Source: Sphingomicrobium lutaoense
Lineage (GTDB): Bacteria; Pseudomonadota; Alphaproteobacteria; Sphingomonadales; Sphingomonadaceae
Assembly (NCBI RefSeq): GCF_014195685.1
Contig: NZ_JACICF010000001.1
Coordinates: forward strand, 505,317 to 569,316
Reading direction: 5' to 3'
DNA: 64,000 nt
A program made the translations under genes and the position numbers. Shown piece after piece: positions 34,693-34,844 of this stretch. A model generated the notes under the pieces. The model was not told where the DNA came from. It saw only the letters and a list, made by a program, of their open reading frames with translations, and ran no database searches. Each line of letters starts with the position of its first letter. Within the stretch, counting starts at the first letter, position 1.

Positions 34693-34844
34693 GAGTCTTT
34701 CGAGTCACACCACTAGGGGTTGAGTCCGGCCCATTGCTGGAGACTCAACATCTTGTGGTCGCCTGCTTGTCAGGCACAATATCCGAGTCGATCCGCAAGC
34801 CCTTGAATCATCTTGCGAACTTGACCGCGAGTCCCGGAGGACTC
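34693..34844. promoter_or_regulatory. Cluster of eight GANTC (CcrM) sites before ccrM
   Basis: GANTC occurs at 34693, 34702, 34722, 34742, 34785, 34805, 34829 and 34840, eight sites in 152 bases of the ccrM upstream region. With about 64% GC one would expect roughly one per 300 bases. The last site lies 35 bases before the ccrM ATG. A small hairpin GCCTG-5-CAGGC lies at 34761-34775. This suggests that methylation state feeds back on ccrM transcription. Confidence 0.65.

Follow-up and report, generated by a model that had tools for sequence, protein, structure and literature searches.

The eight GANTC sites that precede ccrM in Sphingomicrobium lutaoense do not form one uniform array. Two of them are built into an inverted repeat that matches a paired NrdR operator, and two others lie within a predicted core promoter. 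This arrangement suggests that ccrM probably has a compound promoter, where CcrM synthesis would depend jointly on methylation state (through GcrA) and on dATP (through NrdR). Positions are those of the window, the whole stretch of 64,000 nucleotides that was analysed, and the features are collected in Table 1, where each GANTC site can be found by its first base.

An exact search confirmed the count of eight GANTC sites within 152 bases made in the sequence-only reading of this DNA. All eight are inside the gap between the rnhB stop codon, at 34684, and the ccrM ATG, at 34879. The same reading had expected about one site per 300 bases, a figure that understates the excess. The genome is poor in GANTC: 1.17 sites per kb were counted in the 464 kb sampled (22% of the 2.08-Mb genome), and the window itself contains 96 sites as compared to 342 in dinucleotide shuffles. 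This background predicts 0.17 sites per 152 bp, and the Poisson probability of observing at least eight is 1.7e-11. The array is thus far denser than its surroundings. The densest other 152-bp clusters in the sample have five sites; two such clusters were observed, near position 1209640 of contig 1 and near position 228437 of contig 2. A search of the whole genome for close GANTC triples gave the array upstream of ccrM as the longest chain. That chance or base composition produced the array has a practically negligible probability in view of the Poisson value and of the presence of GANTC upstream of ccrM in each of the 130 family members examined.

The ccrM product matches CcrMI (6pbd) over residues 33-379 with an E-value of 9e-157, as well as PF01555 and PF18755. 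Its score against NF050803, 625 bits, is below the cut-off of that model (830). The combination of N6/N4 methyltransferase and RAMA domains identifies it, at the sequence level, as a CcrM ortholog. The genome also encodes NrdR (TIGR00244, 176.9 bits for a cut-off of 124.65), with residues D15 and R17 present, and GcrA (PF07750 match; the match to NF050816 is below the cut-off of that model).

Table 1. Features of the rnhB-ccrM region, in window coordinates.
Feature	Position	Strand	Basis and remarks
rnhB, ribonuclease HII, upstream neighbour	34103..34684	+	ORF and profile searches
Eight-site GANTC array (CcrM targets)	34693..34844	.	Site search and density test
Outer site GAGTC	34693..34697	.	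17 bp before NrdR box 1
Site GAGTC	34702..34706	.	8 bp before box 1; in 8% of the family and in the nearest relative
Predicted NrdR box 1, CCACTAGGGGTTGAGT	34710..34725	.	Matrix scan; inner end overlaps GAGTC 34722-34726
CcrM site GAGTC, inner end of box 1	34722..34726	.	78% of the family
CcrM site GACTC, inner end of box 2	34742..34746	.	85% of the family
Predicted NrdR box 2, ACTCAACATCTTGTGG	34743..34758	.	Matrix scan; begins 33 bp from the start of box 1 (17-bp spacer)
Weak candidate for a third NrdR box, GCACAATATCCGAGTC	34774..34789	.	Pair score 14.7; 31 bp after box 2 start; ends in CcrM site 34785-34789
Lineage-specific site GAGTC	34785..34789	.	GATTC in the nearest relative
Lineage-specific site GAATC	34805..34809	.	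GACTC in the nearest relative
-35 element TTGACC of the predicted ccrM core promoter	34821..34826	+	Family alignment, pattern search
Core CcrM site 1, GAGTC, between -35 and -10	34829..34833	.	N varies in the family
Core CcrM site 2, GACTC	34840..34844	.	Shares its last base with the -10-like hexamer; N variable across the family
-10-like hexamer CAGGGT, predicted	34844..34849	+	17 bp downstream of -35; CAcccT in the family consensus
ccrM, GANTC adenine methyltransferase with RAMA domain	34879..36030	+	ORF, profile and structure matches

Conservation was studied in 130 Sphingomonadaceae ccrM upstream regions of about 350 bp each. None is devoid of GANTC; each has 2 to 11 sites, with a mean of 6.0. 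The nearest relative keeps all eight sites of the window, four of which differ, each at N alone. In this comparison, 36 of the 40 site columns are identical, as compared to 71 of the 130 other non-box intergenic columns (55%). Changes confined to N are the pattern expected from selection on CcrM recognition itself, and selection for CcrM sites at the ccrM promoter is well supported by these alignments. Neither ground on which the sequence-only reading would have given up its claim, a density no higher than in other intergenic regions or lack of conservation in close relatives, applies. The array also persists where rnhB is not the upstream neighbour: rnhB is present at 38 of 49 loci, and the remaining loci have 3 to 8 sites.

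The spacing of the sites is also conserved. Relative to the TTGAC anchor of the -35 element, the family slots are -128, -99, -89, -79, -60, +8/9 and +19, and the distances between neighbouring sites cluster at 9-11, 18-21 and 28-30 bp. Such spacing, of about 10, 20 or 30 bp, would place neighbouring sites on one face of the helix. Arrays in other alphaproteobacterial orders keep the steps of 9-11 and 19-20 bp with differing layouts; the phasing value R is 0.34 for these as compared to 0.03 for GANTC pairs elsewhere, where no phase is visible. Part of the phasing signal is due to common descent.

The inverted repeat, the most conserved part of the array, has sites 34722 and 34742 at its inner ends. 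A matrix was trained on Sphingomonadaceae nrdA upstream regions alone, where a pair of NrdR boxes is expected; 28 of 29 of them yielded one. Applied to the gap before ccrM in the window, this matrix gave a pair of 28.8 bits, comparable to good nrdA promoters (28.5 bits with the own genome left out), formed by two 16-bp palindromes set 33 bp apart, at whole helix turns. Across the family, 92% of the 130 ccrM upstream regions scored above the 99th percentile of the controls, 1044 genomic windows, and 82% scored higher than any control. With column-permuted matrices the former value fell to 10% on average. A second matrix, derived from class II ribonucleotide reductase genes of other orders, selected the identical position. 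In the 464 kb sampled from the own genome, pairs above 14 bits were found at the ccrM and nrdA loci alone, the ccrM pair being the best. The signal was weak or absent upstream of two of the nrdA genes and in about 8% of the ccrM upstream regions. The NrdR-like 13-mer taken alone is uninformative: three other one-mismatch matches were inspected, two in coding sequence and none at a ribonucleotide reductase gene.

NrdR binds boxes separated by spacers of 14-17 bp (PMC12051234), a range that includes the 17 bp of the window pair. In the NrdR–DNA structure, D15 and R17 read each box at two GC pairs that are highly conserved (PMC9110341) and that our alignment would place at C4 and G13 of the 16-mer. 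Both bases occur in both window boxes and are conserved at 96-99% in the family at positions not fixed by anchoring. C4 of box 1 (99%) and G13 of box 2 (96%) are free positions outside GANTC, yet they are as conserved as the sites themselves. The methylatable adenines adjoin the C4/G13 pairs.

The behaviour of N distinguishes the sites. In the family, N is always G at the site ending box 1 (80/80) and always C at the one ending box 2 (87/87). The outer GAGTC slot, at -17/-18 from box 1, is occupied in 91% of 102 genomes, with G in 92 of 93 cases, and at the outer right site (a slot located 3 bp past box 2 in the family) N is C in 51 of 51. N is free at mid-spacer and core sites. Because N is fixed at the operator-side sites, methylation alone is insufficient as an explanation. 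The outer sites also have conserved flanks, GAGTCtttcg and GACTCgtttcGTTC; fixed N and TTTCG-type flanks are thus found beside the NrdR boxes although these sites are outside them. NrdR would account for N at the inner sites, not at the outer ones, so that a further sequence-reading factor is likely to act there.

These data bear on the idea of a strong methylation-state switch put forward in the sequence-only reading. In its pure form, hemi- versus full methylation would be sensed through GcrA or a similar factor, NrdR would be uninvolved, and the likeness to NrdR boxes would be a by-product of inverted GAGTC/GACTC. The strong selection on GANTC, with four sites altered at N alone in the nearest relative, and the variable N at core sites fit this explanation. 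It is nevertheless unlikely, since C4 and G13 outside GANTC are conserved like the sites, the repeat matches boxes learned from other genes, and N is fixed at the operator sites. What stands of the initial claim is the selection for CcrM sites, together with the position of the pair 34829/34840 between -35 and -10; the picture of a bare dense array does not, as the inverted repeat scores as an NrdR operator with fixed N at its sites, and the first interpretation has to be revised. Alternatively, the inverted repeat could be the operator of another dimeric regulator whose target resembles an NrdR box. The conserved flanks outside the boxes would then find a reason. This possibility is quite improbable, since two independent NrdR matrices agree on the position and, in the part of the genome sampled, no locus besides nrdA has further pairs that score highly.

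The core was delineated from the family consensus, cTTGACg..GANTC......GAnTCAcccT. The pattern TTGAC-N2-4-GANTC-N4-7-GANTC has one match in the 2.08-Mb genome, at ccrM. A generic promoter scan detected no promoter at the core, the -10 of which is poor. In Caulobacter, a GANTC between -35 and -10 is the mark of a class of cell-cycle promoters (PMC4287350), and GANTC methylation stimulates GcrA binding (PMC3667746). Sites 34829 and 34840 occupy this position relative to the predicted -10, and because their N varies in the family they resemble true methylation targets. The sequence-only reading held that methylation in the Caulobacter ccrM promoter is known to affect its expression; the response of ccrM to its own methylation is described as 'most probably' true (PMC3973325).

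The inverted repeat might also act in RNA, as a stem in a rnhB-ccrM transcript with the GANTC pairs as its strands. The window strand does fold better than its shuffles (z -2.4). However, the dyad shows no covariation (mean z 0.45), the repeat is upstream of the predicted promoter and the array is kept at loci without rnhB, so that a hairpin or leader is highly improbable. A cis-regulatory RNA element was likewise rejected, the Rfam search giving no match and the covariation test no compensatory changes.

In the compound promoter, the first module would be the core, TTGACC/CAGGGT with two CcrM sites in its spacer. RNA polymerase and GcrA would use it best when the core GANTC sites are methylated, so that the core would read replication-dependent methylation. 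The second module would be the NrdR-box pair, centred about 86 bp upstream of -35, 33 bp apart and with CcrM sites as inner ends. When DNA synthesis slows and dATP rises, NrdR loaded with dATP/ATP would occupy the boxes and ccrM transcription would decrease. NrdR indeed binds as dATP rises with falling DNA synthesis (PMC9110341). Because NrdR was reported as an activator of topA in Pseudomonas (PMC4409342), the sign of its effect on ccrM could be either. NrdR occupancy and CcrM methylation would compete or affect one another at their common bases. The sites, their conservation and phasing, the match to NrdR boxes and the core are read from the sequence; that NrdR and GcrA bind, in which direction they regulate and what methylation does are inferred. 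Several observations argue against the compound promoter. The boxes are 63-111 bp upstream of -35, distal to the core, and NrdR repression is usually exerted by overlap with the promoter. The core has no good -10 and escapes the generic scan, the co-occurrence of array and boxes outside the family loses significance once ancestry is taken into account, part of the phasing is due to common descent, and NrdR does not explain why N is fixed at the outer sites.

More tentatively, NrdR may directly control CcrM in Sphingomonadaceae, and perhaps in wider Alphaproteobacteria, through an operator in which the putative contact bases abut CcrM-methylated adenines; the odds of this broader proposal are a little short of even. 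If it holds, the same bases would read precursor supply and methylation state, with mutual feedback in each cell cycle. As CcrM sites are built into both the predicted operator and the core, DNA supply, replication and methylation may be linked, and control of ccrM by NrdR would make a single promoter the meeting point of dATP level, replication and methylation. This bears on the timing of CcrM synthesis outside Caulobacter and Rhizobiales, notably in sphingomonads; CtrA was reported to be dispensable in S. melonis (PMC8116508). About a hundred of the examined genomes have an architecture of this kind that can be recognised from sequence.

Outside the family, a near-perfect NrdR box accompanies a GANTC array in many ccrM upstream regions (L072, L043 and L064, for example), and Rhizobiaceae ccrM upstream regions have neither array nor box. 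The co-occurrence counts (27/8/3/24) are strong uncorrected and not significant after correction for ancestry; in this tree-corrected test there are too few independent changes for the co-occurrence to serve as independent evidence. The motifs of CtrA-activated promoters, TTAA-N7-TTAA or TTAACCAT, are missing from the window promoter, there being no TTAA in 34685-34878. Among 97 relatives, the CtrA half-site TTAACCAT precedes the ccrM core in 30, and a DnaA box, TGTGGATAA, directly follows the core promoter in 31; both are absent from the window. CtrA or DnaA input at the window promoter was accordingly rejected, such sites being present in about a third of the relatives and in none of the window.

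A search of the open literature gave no account of ccrM being controlled by NrdR. In the main text of an NrdR regulon survey ccrM goes unmentioned (PMC5343134); the supplementary tables of that survey could still list it. GANTC sites before alphaproteobacterial cell-cycle genes were surveyed in 2010, with no conclusion reached on control (PMC2877005), and a 2021 study counted the sites before ctrA, not ccrM (PMC8116508).

Three known systems can be compared with this promoter. The NrdR operators of ribonucleotide reductase genes consist, as here, of two 16-bp palindromes separated by about three turns of the helix, with conserved C4/G13. In contrast to them, the operator predicted here belongs to a DNA methylase gene, lies distal to the promoter and has CcrM sites at the inner ends of its boxes. 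Several Sphingomonadaceae nrdA promoters resemble ccrM in having a double-GANTC core and NrdR boxes (8 of 27). In these, the core TTGACg..GAGTC..GATTCA is directly followed by NrdR box 1, and the inner ends of the boxes are rarely GANTC, unlike those at ccrM. Upstream of nrdA in the own genome, three NrdR-like boxes follow one another at distances of 31 and 32 bp. Finally, the GcrA/CcrM-responsive promoters of Caulobacter crescentus (ctrA P1, mipZ, ftsZ and probably ccrM) also have GANTC between or near -35 and -10 and, like the window promoter, serve cell-cycle genes in a genome encoding GcrA. They have one or few sites, whereas the window has eight, phased, with an NrdR-type operator upstream and, unlike the Caulobacter promoters, a gap free of the CtrA TTAA motif.
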